Positions 7,571 to 11,225 of a stretch of DNA of 64,000 nucleotides are shown piece after piece. The position numbers and the translations under genes are program-made. Numbering within the stretch: position 1 is the first letter of the stretch; the number at the start of each line of letters is the position of its first letter. The notes beneath the pieces are model-generated. The model saw only the letters and a program-made list of their open reading frames with translations, ran no database searches and was not told the origin of the DNA. Origin of the DNA: Streptomyces sp. NBC_00457 (GTDB lineage Bacteria; Actinomycetota; Actinomycetes; Streptomycetales; Streptomycetaceae); the NCBI RefSeq assembly GCF_036014015.1, contig NZ_CP107905.1, forward strand, positions 8,184,001 to 8,248,000, given 5' to 3'.

Positions 7571-7609
7571 GCGGCGTTCGTGGAAGCGTGTGTTCTGGAG
7601 ATCCCCGGA

Positions 7610-7631
7610 GTTCAACCGCAGTTCACACGTG
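7610..7631 (+). promoter_or_regulatory. PHO box (two PhoP direct-repeat units)
   Basis: Two adjacent 11-bp units, GTTCAACCGCA (7610-7620) and GTTCACACGTG (7621-7631), match the Streptomyces PhoP direct-repeat consensus (G-T-T-C-A-C/A-C-C-x-x-x). The box lies 72 bp before the start of a PhoX-family phosphatase gene, the expected target of phosphate-starvation control. Confidence 0.75.
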
Positions 7632-7702
7632 AGCGGGAGCGTGGTGGCCGAATACCGAGGTTCGCCACCCTCCACGGCATACCCACCGTTACAGGAGTAC
7701 GC

Positions 7703-9154
7703 ATGTCGCTCACCCGTAGGGACTTTGCCAGAAGCTCCGCGATCACCGGTGCCGGTGTCGCGCTCGCGGGCAGTGTCGGCGCCCTCGCCACCGCACCGAA
7801 CGCGCTCGCCTCCACCGACGTCGAGAGCGAGGCCGAGGGAACGGACGCCGCGTACGGCCGGGTCGGGTACGGGCCGCTGATCCCCGACCCCGACGGCATC
7901 CTCGCGCTGCCCGCCGGCTTCAAGTACCGCGTCATCACCTACAGCGGCAAGACCAAGCTGGAGTCGGGCGAGACCACCCCGTCCAACCACGACGGCACCG
8001 CCGCCTTCGACGGCCCGCGCGGCACCACGCTGCTGGTCAACAACCACGAGATCGGCGGCCCGTACGCCGACGCGGACGCCCCGGTCCCGCTCGCCGAGGG
8101 CCTCGTCTACGACCCGGCCGCGGCCGGCGGCTGCACGGTCGTCGAGGTCCGCCCCGGCGGCGAGGTCGCCGAGTGGGTCGGCATCGCCGGCACCTCCACC
8201 AACTGCGCCGGCGGCAGCACCCCTTGGAACACCTGGCTCACCTGCGAGGAGACCGAGGACAAGGCCGGCTCCAGGGGCATGACCAAGGACCACGGCTACG
8301 TCTTCGAGGTCGACCCCTCCGACCGCCGCGCCAACAAGAACCCCAAGCCCATCAAGGCGCTGGGCCGCTACGCCCACGAGGCCGTTGTCATCGACCCCAA
8401 GCGCGGCCACGCCTACCTGACCGAGGACGCGTCCAACCCCAACGGCCTGCTGTACCGCTGGACCCCGCCCGAGGGCTTCCGCCACGGCCGCGGCAAGCTG
8501 CGCACCCTCGCCGACGACGCGGGCACGTTCGAGGCCTTCAAGTGTTTCGACTCCGGCGGCAAGTTCGTCGACGACCTCTCCCGCGCCACCAAGATCGGCA
8601 CGGTCTACGGCGTCGACTGGATCGACGTCCCCGACCGCGACGCCAGGACGACCTCCGTGCGCAAGCAGTTCACCACCGGCCAGGTCACCCGCTGCCGCAA
8701 GCTGGAGGGCATGTGGTGGGGCGACGGCGGCGCGTACATCGTCTCCTCGTACGCCCGCGCGGAGAGCCCCGGACAGCCGCACGACGGCCAGGTCTGGTTC
8801 TACGACCCCAAGCGCCGCACCCTCACCCTGAAGGTCCTGCTCGGCGTGAACGCCGACCCGTCCAAGGACGGCGCCCTCGACGGCCCCGACAACATCACCG
8901 TCTCCCCGTACGGCGGCCTGATCCTCGCCGAGGACGGCGAGGGCATCCAGCACCTGTTCGGCGCGACGGACAGCGGTCGGACGTACCCCATCGCCCGCAA
9001 CGACCTCAACGTCGGCACCGAAGAGGAGCCCGAGTACAGCGAGTTCACCGGCGTCACCTTCTCGCCCTGCGGCCGCATCCTGTACGCGAACATTCAGGAC
9101 CCGGGCATCATGGTCGCGATTACCGGCCCTTGGAAGCGCCAGAAGCGCGGCTGA
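7703..9154 (+). CDS. Tat-exported PhoX-family (DUF839) phosphatase
   Basis: A 483-aa protein. The start ATG 7703 follows AGGAG. The N-terminus has a twin-arginine signal, LTRRDFARSSAITGAG, and an Ala-rich h-region ending ALAS. The body is the PhoX/DUF839 beta-propeller: YGPLIPDPDGILALPAGFKYRV, NNHEIGGP, WNTWLTCEET, the acidic metal-site region HEAVVIDPKRGHAYLTEDAS, LEGMWWGDGG, DGPDNITVSPYGGLILAEDGEG and FTGVTFSPCGRILYANIQDPG. PhoX enzymes are iron/calcium phosphomonoesterases acting outside the cell. The PHO box upstream supports induction on phosphate limitation. Substrate specificity is not readable. Confidence 0.9.
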   Translation: MSLTRRDFARSSAITGAGVALAGSVGALATAPNALASTDVESEAEGTDAAYGRVGYGPLIPDPDGILALPAGFKYRVITYSGKTKLESGETTPSNHDGTAAFDGPRGTTLLVNNHEIGGPYADADAPVPLAEGLVYDPAAAGGCTVVEVRPGGEVAEWVGIAGTSTNCAGGSTPWNTWLTCEETEDKAGSRGMTKDHGYVFEVDPSDRRANKNPKPIKALGRYAHEAVVIDPKRGHAYLTEDASNPNGLLYRWTPPEGFRHGRGKLRTLADDAGTFEAFKCFDSGGKFVDDLSRATKIGTVYGVDWIDVPDRDARTTSVRKQFTTGQVTRCRKLEGMWWGDGGAYIVSSYARAESPGQPHDGQVWFYDPKRRTLTLKVLLGVNADPSKDGALDGPDNITVSPYGGLILAEDGEGIQHLFGATDSGRTYPIARNDLNVGTEEEPEYSEFTGVTFSPCGRILYANIQDPGIMVAITGPWKRQKRG

Positions 9155-9187
9155 TTAATTCAATGGCCCGGCCCGCGGTACGCCTCC

Positions 9188-9193
9188 TACAGT
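9188..9193 (+). promoter_or_regulatory. Candidate -10 box for the Y-RNA cluster
   Basis: TACAGT fits a TAnnnT -10 element and would place transcription initiation near 9200, exactly where the closing helix of the first Y-RNA-like RNA begins. No convincing -35 is visible. Nothing similar precedes the second and third RNAs, so one transcript processed into three RNAs is possible. Confidence 0.35.
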
Positions 9194-9199
9194 GATGCA

Positions 9200-9339
9200 T
9201 GTCCAGGTGCGAAGGCAGGACCTACTTCCACTGATAATGGGGCGGCCGCGGGTTCGAGTCCCGCCACCGGTACAACGCGCCGGTGTAGCTCAGGGGTTAG
9301 AGCACCTACGTCGGTTCCGCCGGCCTTGAACTCTGGACA
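9200..9339 (+). ncRNA. Y-RNA-like RNA 1 with circularly permuted tRNA-like domain
   Basis: About 140 nt. Outer helix TGTCCAG (9200-9206) pairs with CTGGACA (9333-9339). An internal loop GTGCG/GAACT follows, then inner helix AAGGCAGG (9212-9219) with CCGGCCTT (9320-9327, one A.G mismatch). This bulged helix, with CGAAGG on the 5' side and CTTGA on the 3' side, resembles the Ro60-binding part of Y RNAs. Inside sits a tRNA-like unit in permuted order: T arm GCGGG-TTCGAGT-CCCGC (9248-9264), acceptor 3' strand CACCGGT (9265-9271), a 7-nt cap, acceptor 5' strand GCCGGTG (9279-9285), then D arm GCTC/GAGC (9288-9303). There is no anticodon arm in the usual place. Bacterial Y RNAs are known to mimic tRNA this way, and rsr follows directly. 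Confidence 0.85.
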
Positions 9340-9360
9340 CCACAATTTCATGCATGTCAC

Positions 9361-9438
9361 GCACCTCCCGGTGCGCAGGCTGCGGCTACTTCTCTCTCAA
9401 AGAATCCACGCCGCCGCCGACTTGATCTCGGGAGGCGC
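9361..9438 (+). ncRNA. Y-RNA-like RNA 2, minimal form without tRNA-like domain
   Basis: About 78 nt. Outer helix CCTCCCG (9364-9370) pairs with CGGGAGG (9429-9435), extendable to 9361/9438. Internal loop GTGCGCA (9371-9377) faces GACTTGATCT (9419-9428). Inner helix GGCTGCGGC (9378-9386) pairs with GCCGCCGCC (9410-9418) with one mismatch, closing a 23-nt loop. The 5' element GGTGCGCAGGC is shared with the other two RNAs, as is the TACTTCT after the inner helix, so it is a paralogue in which the tRNA-like module is absent and only the putative Ro-binding stem remains. Confidence 0.75.
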
Positions 9439-9449
9439 AGCAGATGGTG

Positions 9450-9587
9450 TGTGCCCGGTGCGCAGGCAACGGTTACTTCTGGGATCAGAGGGTTGCGGGT
9501 TCGAGTCCCGTCATCGACTCAGGGTCGGTGTAGCTCAATCGGCAGAGCATCTGACTGTTCCGTCGCCGACTCCTGACCTCGGGCACA
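9450..9587 (+). ncRNA. Y-RNA-like RNA 3 with circularly permuted tRNA-like domain
   Basis: About 138 nt. Outer helix TGTGCCCG (9450-9457) pairs perfectly with CGGGCACA (9580-9587). Internal loop GTGCGCA/GACTCCTGACCT. Inner helix GGCAACGG (9465-9472) with CCGTCGCC (9560-9567). The tRNA-like module is permuted: TCAGA (9485-9489) pairs with TCTGA (9550-9554) where a tRNA has its anticodon stem; T arm GCGGG-TTCGAGT-CCCGT (9495-9511); acceptor CATCGAC (9512-9518) and GTCGGTG (9524-9530) joined by a 5-nt cap; D arm GCTC/GAGC (9533-9548) with GG in the D loop. It ends 54 nt before the rsr start codon. Confidence 0.85.
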
Positions 9588-9622
9588 TTCCATTTGCTGC
9601 GCCTCCCCCTTGGAAAATCAAT

Positions 9623-9638
9623 GAATTCGGGGGAATTC
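9623..9638 (+). promoter_or_regulatory. Possible hairpin holding the rsr ribosome-binding site
   Basis: Two GAATTC hexamers (9623-9628 and 9633-9638) flank GGGG, so the RNA can fold as a 6-bp stem with a G4 loop. The G-run, the only Shine-Dalgarno-like element before ATG 9642, would sit in the loop. Ro60 or Y-RNA levels might act through it, but this is inference. Confidence 0.3.
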
Positions 9639-9641
9639 ACC

Positions 9642-11225
9642 ATGGCGCGTTTCAACACCAAGAACACCAGGGCACAGCCCACTTCCCGCGTGACGTCGAC
9701 CGGGCGCGTTCTGCGTACCCACCAGGGCGGCCGGGGTCAGGAGCGTGACGCACGCTCCGAGCTCTTTCTCCTCTCGATCGCCAACTTCGTCGCGCAGCAG
9801 ACCTTTTACGAGAGCGGCGAGGCCCGCGACGACCGGTTCGCCGAGCTCGTACGCCGGGTCGCCGTCGAGGACCCGGAGTGGACCGCGGGCCTGCTCGGCT
9901 GGCTGCGCGGTGAGGGCAACCTGCGTACGGCCTCGATCGTGGGCGCCGCTGAATACGTGAAGGCGCGCCTCGACGCCGGCGCGACGGACGGCCCGTCCAA
10001 CCGGCAGGTCATCGACTCCGTGCTGCGCCGCCCCGACGAGCCCGGCGAGCTGCTCGCGTACTGGACTTCGCGGTACGGCCGAGCCATCCCGAAGCCCGTG
10101 AAGCGTGGCGTCGCCGACGCCGTACGCCGCCTCTACAGCGCCAAGTCGCTCCTGAAGTACGACACGGCGTCCAAGGGCTACCGCTTCGGCGACATCCTGA
10201 ACCTGGTGCACGCCGCGCCGGATCCTCAGAAGCCGTGGCAGGGCGACCTGTTCCAGTACGCCCTCGACCGCCGGCACAACCCGGACACGGCTGTGGTGCC
10301 CAAGTCGCTGCCGGTTCTGGCGGCCCACCGTGACCTGATGGCACTGCGGCCCGCCAAGCGGCGCAGGGTCGTGACCGGTGCGGGCGGCGCGCAGCGTCTC
10401 GCGGACGCGGGCATCACCTGGGAGGCGCTGGCCGGCTGGCTGCAGGGCCCGATGGACAAGGCGGCCTGGGAGGCCGTGATCCCGTCCATGGGCGCCATGG
10501 CACTGGTCCGCAACCTGCGGAACTTCGACGAGGCCGGTGTCTCGGACGAGGTGGCGGCCCAGGTCGCCGCGAAGATCAGCGACCCGGCGGAGGTGGCGCG
10601 CTCGCGGCAGTTCCCGTTCCGCTACCTCGCCGCGTACCAGCACGCCCCGTCGCTGCGCTGGTCGTACCCGCTGGAGCAGGCACTCGGTCACTCGCTGGCC
10701 AACGTGCCCGCGCTGCCGGGCCGCACGCTGGTGCTCGTCGACCGCTCGGGCTCGATGTTCTGGTCGCGCCTGTCCGACCGCTCGGAGCTGAACCGGGCGG
10801 ACGCCGCGGCGATCTTCGGTACGGCGCTCGCGCTGCGGGCGGCGGACGCGGATCTCGTCGAGTTCGGCACGAGCAGCAACCGGATCCGCTTCCGCAAGGG
10901 CGAGTCCGTACTGAAGGTGCTCGACCGCTTCGGTGACCTCGGCGGTACCGATACCACCGAGGCGGTGCGCAAGCACTACAAGAAGCATGACCGCGTCCTG
11001 ATCATCACGGACGAGCAGGCCGCGTACAGCCACCACGGCGACCCCACCGAGCAGGTGCCGGCCCGCGTGCCGGTCTACACCTGGAACCTCGCCGGGTACC
11101 GGGCGGGCCACGGCCCGTCGGGCCGTGGCAACCGCCACACCTTCGGTGGCCTGTCGGACGCGGCGTTCCGGATGGTGCCGCTTCTCGAGAGCGCACGGGA
11201 CGCCGACTGGCCCTGGGTCGCGTAG
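9642..11225 (+). CDS. rsr: Ro60 orthologue (TROVE plus vWA domain RNA-binding protein)
   Basis: A 527-aa protein. I chose ATG 9642 (MARFNTKNTRAQP) because family proteins begin this way; upstream ATGs at 9594 and 9621 would add a tail unlike the family. The TROVE HEAT-repeat ring covers residues ~15-350, with signature stretches FVAQQTFYESGEARDDRF, LLGWLRGEGNLRTASIVGA, DSVLRRPDEPGELLAYW and FGDILNLVHAAP. The C-terminal vWA domain has an intact MIDAS: D367-R-S369-G-S371, GGTDTTEA near 435 and D457 in IITDEQA. Ro60 proteins bind Y RNAs and misfolded RNAs, and in bacteria tether exoribonucleases such as PNPase. Three Y-RNA-like genes lie immediately upstream, so the locus is self-contained. No rtcB lies in the window. 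Confidence 0.95.
   Translation: MARFNTKNTRAQPTSRVTSTGRVLRTHQGGRGQERDARSELFLLSIANFVAQQTFYESGEARDDRFAELVRRVAVEDPEWTAGLLGWLRGEGNLRTASIVGAAEYVKARLDAGATDGPSNRQVIDSVLRRPDEPGELLAYWTSRYGRAIPKPVKRGVADAVRRLYSAKSLLKYDTASKGYRFGDILNLVHAAPDPQKPWQGDLFQYALDRRHNPDTAVVPKSLPVLAAHRDLMALRPAKRRRVVTGAGGAQRLADAGITWEALAGWLQGPMDKAAWEAVIPSMGAMALVRNLRNFDEAGVSDEVAAQVAAKISDPAEVARSRQFPFRYLAAYQHAPSLRWSYPLEQALGHSLANVPALPGRTLVLVDRSGSMFWSRLSDRSELNRADAAAIFGTALALRAADADLVEFGTSSNRIRFRKGESVLKVLDRFGDLGGTDTTEAVRKHYKKHDRVLIITDEQAAYSHHGDPTEQVPARVPVYTWNLAGYRAGHGPSGRGNRHTFGGLSDAAFRMVPLLESARDADWPWVA

Follow-up and report, generated by a model that had tools for sequence, protein, structure and literature searches.

A Streptomyces Ro60 locus with three candidate Y RNAs, two of them carrying permuted tRNA-like modules

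Introduction

What is encoded in the short interval that separates phoX from rsr, the gene of a Ro60 orthologue, on a Streptomyces chromosome? The original prediction, made from the letters of the DNA, placed three tandem Y RNA-like genes there. The stretch analysed here (the window; 64,000 nt, numbered from its first letter) belongs to a 10.8 Mb Streptomyces chromosome assembled in one contig, and 79 of the best 80 relatives of its rsr are named Streptomyces. Vertebrate Y RNAs have a lower stem that binds Ro60 and contains a conserved GGUNCGAAGG-like element, in which they may resemble the units described below; they are encoded by separate genes and are not known to carry a tRNA-like module. 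The Salmonella Y RNA YrlB is not known to have a tRNA-like module either, like the second of the three units.

According to PMC4726728, Rsr binds the lower stem of its Y RNA, which in Deinococcus serves as a tether of Rsr to PNPase and as a gate for its substrates. The tRNA-like domain of another bacterial Y RNA, YrlA, is described as resembling D, T and acceptor arms and as being modified by DusA and TruB (PMC8394870), and YrlA aligns with tRNA by way of a circular permutation (PMC11472068). For the role of this tRNA-like part, PMC7790460 offers a set of possibilities.

Results

Three structured units between phoX and rsr

Three structured units occupy window positions 9200–9587, between phoX (7580–9154) and the ATG of rsr at 9642. 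The rsr gene (9642–11225, forward strand) encodes a protein of 527 aa that matched the Pfam TROVE family (PF05731) with an E-value of 4.4e-13, and all 80 relatives aligned to it from query residue 1. By sequence, its only matches among solved proteins were the TROVE domain proteins 9kop (E about 5e-27) and 9l5y (about 6e-27); Pfam returned no vWA family for the product, and the vWA part was read off the alignment to 9kop. An NCBIfam search with the rsr product gave no match at E ≤ 0.01, and PADLOC gave no anti-phage annotation for rsr and three neighbours. No rtcB gene was found beside rsr of the kind present in the Salmonella RNA-repair operon (rsr-yrlBA-rtcBA); two RtcB genes lie at chromosome positions 9321495 and 4810550, more than 1 Mb from rsr (8193642). 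The ribosome-binding stretch of rsr (GGGGG, 9629–9633) is contained in the repeat GAATTCGGGGGAATTC (9623–9638, forward strand), a possible operator; an exact copy lies no more than 40 nt from the start codon of rsr in 64 of the 80 relatives. Several of the remaining 16 relatives carry one extra G in this repeat.

All three units follow one order, from a closing helix through GGTGCGNAGGC, a GGC/GCC helix and one mismatched pair to a second short helix, after which comes (C/T)TACTTC or a near variant. The element GGTGCG(A/C)AGGC stands behind the closing helix in each of them, so that the predicted arrangement of three units with closing helix and shared element in front of rsr was seen in full. 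CTTC was found 20–40 nt into the unit in all 61 units compared, linked and unlinked, a set that comprised the window's three, ten loci of other genera, the unlinked units and the first units of three divergent loci (L157–L159) and that left out several second units.

Unit 1 (Y1, 9200–9339) is closed by TGTCCAG (9200–9206) and CTGGACA (9333–9339), unit 2 (Y2, 9362–9437) by CCTCCCG (9364–9370) and CGGGAGG (9429–9435), and unit 3 (Y3, 9449–9587) by TGTGCCCG (9450–9457) and CGGGCACA (9580–9587), all on the forward strand. Their measured lengths of about 140, 76 and 139 nt agree with the roughly 140 nt expected for the first and third units and 78 nt for the second. The linkers are 22 nt between Y1 and Y2, 11 nt between Y2 and Y3, and 54 nt between Y3 and the rsr ATG; the claim that all units end within 54 nt of rsr is thus correct for Y3 but not for Y1 and Y2, which end 302 and 204 nt away.

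Y1 and Y3 are long because each holds a permuted tRNA-like module, their upper part reading as a tRNA in the order T arm, 7-bp acceptor-like helix with its loop, and D arm. The Y1 module (9248–9304, forward strand), as read from the sequence, consists of a T arm (9248–9264), a 7-bp acceptor-like hairpin (9265–9285) and a D arm (9286–9304), and its T arm is also a weak tmRNA match in Rfam (9247–9264). The Y3 module (9485–9554, forward strand; helices 3–6 of the class I alignment) has an anticodon-like stem (9485–9489 with 9550–9554) around a T arm (9495–9511), an acceptor-like hairpin (9512–9530) and a D arm (9531–9549). This stem runs into the putative Ro-binding stem, and the position of the anticodon loop is open there. 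Y2 is short and has no such module. What had been described as an asymmetric internal loop and a second helix is therefore, in Y1 and Y3, a tRNA mimic that had been overlooked, as the matches to the Rfam YrlA model given below also indicate.

Covariance model searches

A covariance model (R2) was trained on 14 unlinked Y RNAs taken from other Streptomyces, with no window sequence among them. Searched against the 10.8-Mb genome, it returned exactly three matches at E ≤ 1e-9, and likewise at E ≤ 1e-5, which were Y1 (110.5 bits, 9198–9338), Y2 (60.1 bits, 9362–9434) and Y3 (89.4 bits, 9449–9585). R2 is independent of the window in its letters but not in its discovery, because its 14 sequences came from a model (R1) that included unit 3.

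The Rfam model of YrlA (RF02553; gathering score 69) matched Y3 over the full length of the model with 42.9 bits (9469–9572) and Y1 with 32.9 bits (9241–9306). At gathering thresholds, Rfam reported nothing in the window and no YrlA match in the loci of 18 relatives. The permuted T arm, acceptor-like hairpin and D arm that mark YrlA are present in Y1 and Y3 and missing in Y2. Because the gathering score was not reached, we file Y1 and Y3 as actinobacterial Y RNAs with a YrlA-like architecture and not as members of Rfam YrlA. ARAGORN found no tRNA gene in the window, where the best score of the Rfam tRNA model (RF00005) was 19.4 bits against a cut-off of 29. Weak R1 matches in many genomes without rsr (at most 53.5 bits, model positions 19–120) span 94–99 nt and lie side by side in one genome (G106); they were taken for tandem tRNA genes and excluded.

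Conservation of base pairing

Helix loss without compensating changes in orthologous loci had been named beforehand as the outcome that would speak against the units. It was not seen, pairs being kept in 97.0–99.3% of cells, with Y1 alone uninformative on compensation. Y3 sequences were sorted by D-arm type ahead of alignment, and the proportion of paired cells was 98.3% for the class I type (39 of 39 distinct sequences), 97.4% for the Leu type (36 of 38; L032, which has an insertion, and L047 were excluded), 97.0% for Y1 (56 distinct sequences of 64) and 99.3% for full-length Y2 (49 of 66 distinct sequences, the other 17 being excluded likewise). In slid controls, pairing dropped to 28–57%. 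Changes on both sides of a pair were seen at 8 of 34 pairs in class I Y3, 13 of 38 in Leu-type Y3 and 4 of 15 in Y2, and none of 500 shuffles equalled any of these counts; the number of further pair types in Y2 was matched in 104 of 500 shuffles. Y1 is nearly invariant and therefore has almost no covariation of its own (1 of 31 pairs, equalled in 496 of 500 shuffles).

The unlinked relatives are the strongest covariation test. In the 14 unlinked Y RNAs, 98.5% of cells were paired and 12 of 29 pairs had changed on both sides (0 of 500 shuffles equal), among them 4 of the 6 pairs of the closing helix, which upholds the proposal that the differing closing helices represent covariation. Among orthologues, closing-helix pairing ranged from 87.8 to 100% of cells, with the minimum in Y1 (whose outermost pair is kept in 8 of 56), and the 5' and 3' ends of the units pair into a conserved lower stem, as expected of Y RNAs.

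Folding of the single sequences gave z-scores of −0.96 for Y1, −3.47 for Y2 and −2.07 for Y3, and 37 of 200 shuffles folded as well as or better than Y1. By the nearest-neighbour model, about 13 kcal/mol separates the tRNA-like structures of Y1 and Y3 from the more stable predicted minimum. For these two units, energy folding is neutral to unfavourable. Energy-only folding of Y1 and Y3 missed the full tRNA-like shape, and the structure obtained by comparison was retained instead.

Co-occurrence with rsr in Streptomyces, other genera and viral contigs

Among 150 Streptomyces genomes, rsr was found in 82 (E ≤ 1e-30) and a Y RNA in 76 (R2, E ≤ 1e-9); among 296 genomes of the class, TROVE was found in 37, R2 matches (E ≤ 1e-5) in 37 and both in 35. 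A Y RNA was thus present in 75 of the 82 Streptomyces genomes with rsr and 1 of the 68 without, and in 35 of the 37 class genomes with TROVE and 2 of the 259 without (Fisher p 3e-33 and 1e-40, values that overstate independence because the genomes are related and kinship is uncorrected). Together with the TROVE match of the neighbouring product, this co-occurrence supports the prediction that the Y RNA genes adjoin a Ro60 gene. In the sole Streptomyces exception (G125, locus L145), Y2 and Y3 are kept upstream of a broken rsr remnant that matches query residues 10–143 and 449–511, and the two class genomes with R2 matches only score below 40 bits. In seven Streptomyces genomes with rsr, R2 found nothing at E ≤ 1e-9. 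Weaker matches to R1 or R2 stand upstream of rsr in six of them, one being marginal (L163, E 0.0017), and the seventh (G066) has an rsr fragment.

Outside Streptomyces, arrays were surveyed in 10 of the 21 R2-positive class genomes. Upstream of rsr, R2 found five units in G202, four in G292 (with a fifth by eye), four each in G382, G400, G232 and G432, two each in G185 and G254, and one each in G192 and G275, the latter with a possible second unit by eye. Y units (E ≤ 1e-4) were found on 34 of 37 viral contigs encoding rsr (L197–L233), the other three ending at rsr, although some of these contigs seem to be duplicates (equal match tables for L197/L198, L199/L200 and L203/L204) and some could be proviruses flanked by host DNA. 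The number of units reaches six on one viral contig (L224), and on some the units are spread over 2 kb upstream.

Several divergent loci were also observed. Where rsr has about 53% identity (L157, L158, L159), the first unit has a T arm and hairpin, and a D arm was not seen; to judge from its letters, this unit appears to be a reduced tRNA mimic. A second, divergent rsr (64–71% identity) accompanies the main rsr in six genomes (G013, G016, G039, G101, G110 and G134), and three rsr loci of about 70% identity in other genomes (L160–L162) have a single short Y unit upstream.

Layout across Streptomyces rsr loci

The layout was compared between the window and 80 named rsr loci, which ranked highest among 290. 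In one of these (L063) the contig starts at the array and Y1 could not be assessed, hence 80 assessable loci. Y1 was present in 64 of the 80, Y2 in all 81 loci (77 by pattern; L013, L026, L077 and L080 by eye), and Y3 with a tRNA-like module in 79 of 81 (78 by pattern, L005 by eye), the module having been lost in L024 and L071. At other loci, the number of units ranges from one to six. The triplet had been thought unusual for an actinobacterium, a view that did not hold: the long-short-long arrangement is shared by 52 of the 80 assessable Streptomyces loci, and the multi-unit arrays of other genera (four to five units) and of viral contigs make a triplet ordinary. In ten loci (L004, L011, L012, L013, L015, L017, L039, L040, L077 and L080), Y2 was seen reduced to a hairpin of about 30 nt with the closing helix retained. 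On the rsr tree, this reduction accounts for at least seven changes.

Y RNA genes far from rsr

R2 matches far from rsr or on another contig numbered at least 21, in at least 18 of the 150 Streptomyces genomes, counts that are lower bounds because the matches considered reach down to about 57 bits, and for which unlinked status was judged by eye (ambiguous in G081, and surer in closed than in fragmented assemblies). All 18 genomes have rsr (hypergeometric p 7e-6, kinship uncorrected). Several of the unlinked genes were seen by eye to follow closely on a TANNGT box and to be followed at once by a GC hairpin with a T-containing tail. Their 21 D arms were nearest to tRNA-Glu in 12 cases, to tRNA-His in 3 and to tRNA-Ser or tRNA-Tyr in 6.

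Free-standing Y RNA genes were noted at 14 loci (L147–L154, L156 and L165–L169), 12 of them with a tRNA-Glu-like D arm and several with an apparent promoter box and terminator hairpin of their own. At six others (L155, L170 and L193–L196), a Y unit or pair with a Ser/Tyr-like module occupies what is apparently one shared site between metK and priA, a placement made by Pfam for L155 and by similar flanks for the rest, and one that would make it a second unlinked Y locus of some Streptomyces; L155 also holds an Rfam Streptomyces-metK RNA. In genome G065 (L146, 4318–4565), a short Y unit adjoins a long one with no rsr beside them, and a rhamnogalacturonan lyase and a PASTA protein are encoded nearby.

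Exchange of the imitated tRNA at unit 3

When the acceptor strand was counted in, the closest tRNA of the own genome to the Y1 module was tRNA-His(gtg) for 59 of 64 orthologues. For the window's Y3 it was tRNA-Arg(acg), with tRNA-His(gtg) a close second. Across the loci, the Y3 module is of class I in 40 of 79 and tRNA-Leu-like in 39. The Leu-like form has a tRNA-Leu D arm and mostly a long variable arm, the first pair of which is present in 30 of 36 aligned sequences, and tRNA-Leu of the source genome was nearest for its 5' half in 39 of 39 cases, for the whole module in 35 of 39 and for the 3' half alone in 12 of 39. Some Leu-like modules without the long arm (for example L008 and L045) seem intermediate. 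A single tRNA model for class I Y3 was rejected, the nearest tRNA being His in 16, Arg in 9, Asn in 8, Ile in 3, Trp in 2 and Pro in 1 of 39, in a ranking that shifts once the acceptor strand is omitted.

Mapped on a tree of rsr (80 rows, 78 typed; L056 was excluded for an interrupted match), the Y3 type changes at least 19 times, 13 of them forced by well-supported branches, and at least 18 changes, 9 of them forced, fall on a tree of the upstream gene phoX (72 rows, 71 typed); these counts are limited by a short tree search, by support from SH-aLRT alone and by recombination within the marker genes. Shuffled types gave means of 26.2 changes on the rsr tree and 24.0 on the phoX tree, with 2–6 of 500 shuffles equally low. 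The observed numbers lie below the shuffled ones, and the Y3 type therefore tracks descent, though weakly. Presence of Y1 changes 10 times when L063 is left out and 11 times when it is counted as lacking Y1. Overall, the frequent change both in the number of Y RNAs and in the tRNA imitated suggests that the imitation itself matters. Such frequent exchange of the mimic points either to more than one tRNA shape being able to do the job or to selection for difference as such.

A single promoter-like element in front of the array

A promoter-like element (9158–9193, forward strand) precedes Y1, with ATTC at 9158–9161 and TACAGT at 9188–9193, 30 nt from start to start, and would place a transcription start near 9200. 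The pattern of ATTC (or a near form) with TANNGT 27–33 nt on, which was derived from these same sequences, precedes the first unit in 71 of 81 loci, 57 of which begin with unit 1 and 14 with unit 2, and was found before none of 60 internal Y2 and none of 78 Y3 units. Since the pattern stands only ahead of the first unit, the array looks like one transcription unit. Scans of 9100–9700 for sigma-70 promoters and terminators gave nothing; the sigma-70 scan is blind to the promoter-like element, and another sigma factor may therefore be needed.

Discussion

The three units very probably represent the Y RNAs of an Rsr particle, two of them with tRNA mimics. The simplest reading is that this is the known Rsr machine equipped with three RNAs, one minimal and two carrying such mimics. 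We infer an operon in which the promoter-like element in front of unit 1 would give rise to a single transcript running through Y1, Y2, Y3 and rsr. Nucleases would cut the short linkers and release three free Y RNAs, and the remainder would be translated into Rsr. Rsr would then bind the lower stem of each Y RNA, formed by the closing helix, by GGTGCGNAGGC opposite the 3' strand and by the mismatched second helix, with Y2 as a minimal Y RNA. In Y1 and Y3, the upper module would take up a tRNA fold whose anticodon loop is opened onto the Ro stem and whose acceptor end is shut by a hairpin loop; for these two reasons it could neither be charged nor decode, and it should be recognised by enzymes that recognise tRNA. 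By analogy with Deinococcus and Salmonella, the modules may bring Rsr to partners such as PNPase, or may gate the cavity of Rsr. Taken alone, the tethering to PNPase seems to us to fall a little short of an even chance.

An alternative explanation is that the modules are tRNA-specific baits or decoys, each of which would present Rsr, or a hostile nuclease, with the shape of a given tRNA, this shape being under changing selection. We consider this unlikely, even though several observations fit it. Unit 3 alternates between class I and Leu-like forms at the frequencies given above on both trees (at least 19 and at least 18 changes), and arrays of mixed type exist elsewhere, with Glu-like and class I modules together in L187 and L189 and Gln-like and class I modules in L184. 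Of the 16 loci that lack Y1, 14 have a class I Y3, compared with 25 of the 61 that have Y1, but this association is not significant once corrected for kinship (median p 0.125). A role of YrlA as a competitive inhibitor of an anticodon nuclease has been proposed (PMC7790460), where YrlA is, however, described as not being a substrate of that nuclease; in the modules described here the anticodon loop is open, so that an anticodon nuclease would have no anticodon to cut. Moreover, the class I mimics are not assignable to one tRNA with confidence, and recombination between two old neutral alleles would give the same picture.

The units could also form a cis-acting leader of rsr, a tRNA-like attenuator through which tRNA-binding proteins or nucleases control rsr and from which no separate RNAs are made. 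Their position between the only promoter-like element and the ribosome-binding site of rsr, with no terminator between the units in our scan, would suit such a leader. At least 18 of the 150 Streptomyces genomes, however, carry like units at a great distance from rsr, and several of these units are followed directly by the hairpin and T-containing tail seen by eye; at the rsr loci themselves the units come and go while the start region of rsr stays alike. A leader function is accordingly very improbable.

That the units are split or permuted tRNA genes maturing into working tRNAs can be virtually dismissed. Both tRNA halves are there in permuted order, some relatives have an ACCA-like acceptor end (for example L004 and L014), and one Y unit from another genus (L189:559–694, minus strand) passes the Rfam tRNA cut-off at 621–692 with 31.3 against 29 bits; yet no anticodon was seen, its loop being replaced by the Ro-binding stem, the tRNA searches of the window came out as reported above (0 genes by ARAGORN, RF00005 below its cut-off), and Y2 lacks the module entirely. 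Functionless leftovers from tRNA genes or a mobile element, which the tRNA-like letters and the presence of rsr and Y units on viral contigs might bring to mind, are scarcely credible given the compensatory changes, the pairing retained in orthologues, the conservation of the array across the genus and the tight co-occurrence with rsr.

The Y RNAs that we propose here resemble known systems to different degrees. They share with Salmonella YrlA (RF02553; structure 6CU1) the lower Ro-binding stem, the permuted series of T arm, acceptor hairpin and D arm, the adjacent rsr and, at unit 3, a match along the full YrlA model. They differ from it in scores under the gathering score (42.9 and 32.9 bits against 69), in placing three units before rsr instead of forming an rsr-yrlBA-rtcBA operon, with the RtcB genes more than 1 Mb off, and in the Leu-like unit 3 module, mostly with a long variable arm, of about half of the Streptomyces relatives. 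Salmonella YrlB and the Y RNA of Deinococcus radiodurans are likewise encoded with rsr, a likeness drawn from their published descriptions and not from sequences; compared with YrlB, again by description, the short unit in Streptomyces stands in the middle, or comes first in loci that lack Y1. A permuted order of tRNA halves is also known from circularly permuted tRNA genes and from tmRNA, and there is the weak T-arm match to tmRNA, but the modules here have no anticodon, a loop-closed acceptor end and a junction with a Ro-binding stem.

A wider and rather speculative reading, which we think improbable at present, is that Rsr carries whole sets of tRNA look-alikes in actinobacteria and in their viruses. 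Each copy would bait an enzyme, nuclease or toxin that is specific for a tRNA, in an arms race where Rsr would be the hub that catches or channels the baited target. The reading draws on arrays that reach five or six Y RNAs, on the unlinked genes, on the range of modules (class I, Leu-, Glu-, Gln- and Ser/Tyr-like) and on the repeated exchange, among close relatives, of the tRNA copied at a single position, which it would lead one to expect.

None of the titles listed in the literature searches dealt with Streptomyces Y RNAs, and Chen 2014, Wang 2018, Sim and Wolin 2018 and Wolin 2013 may describe such loci. The kind of Y RNA is already known; the actinobacterial array, the swapping modules and the unlinked genes were not found among the titles listed, and priority is not established. 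The R1 and R2 models detect Y RNAs below the Rfam cut-off, including genes far from rsr that searches next to rsr miss. The natural swaps of the tRNA-like module, of which the trees imply at least 18 or 19 while the rest of the RNA stays constant, provide a ready-made experiment on what the mimic does.
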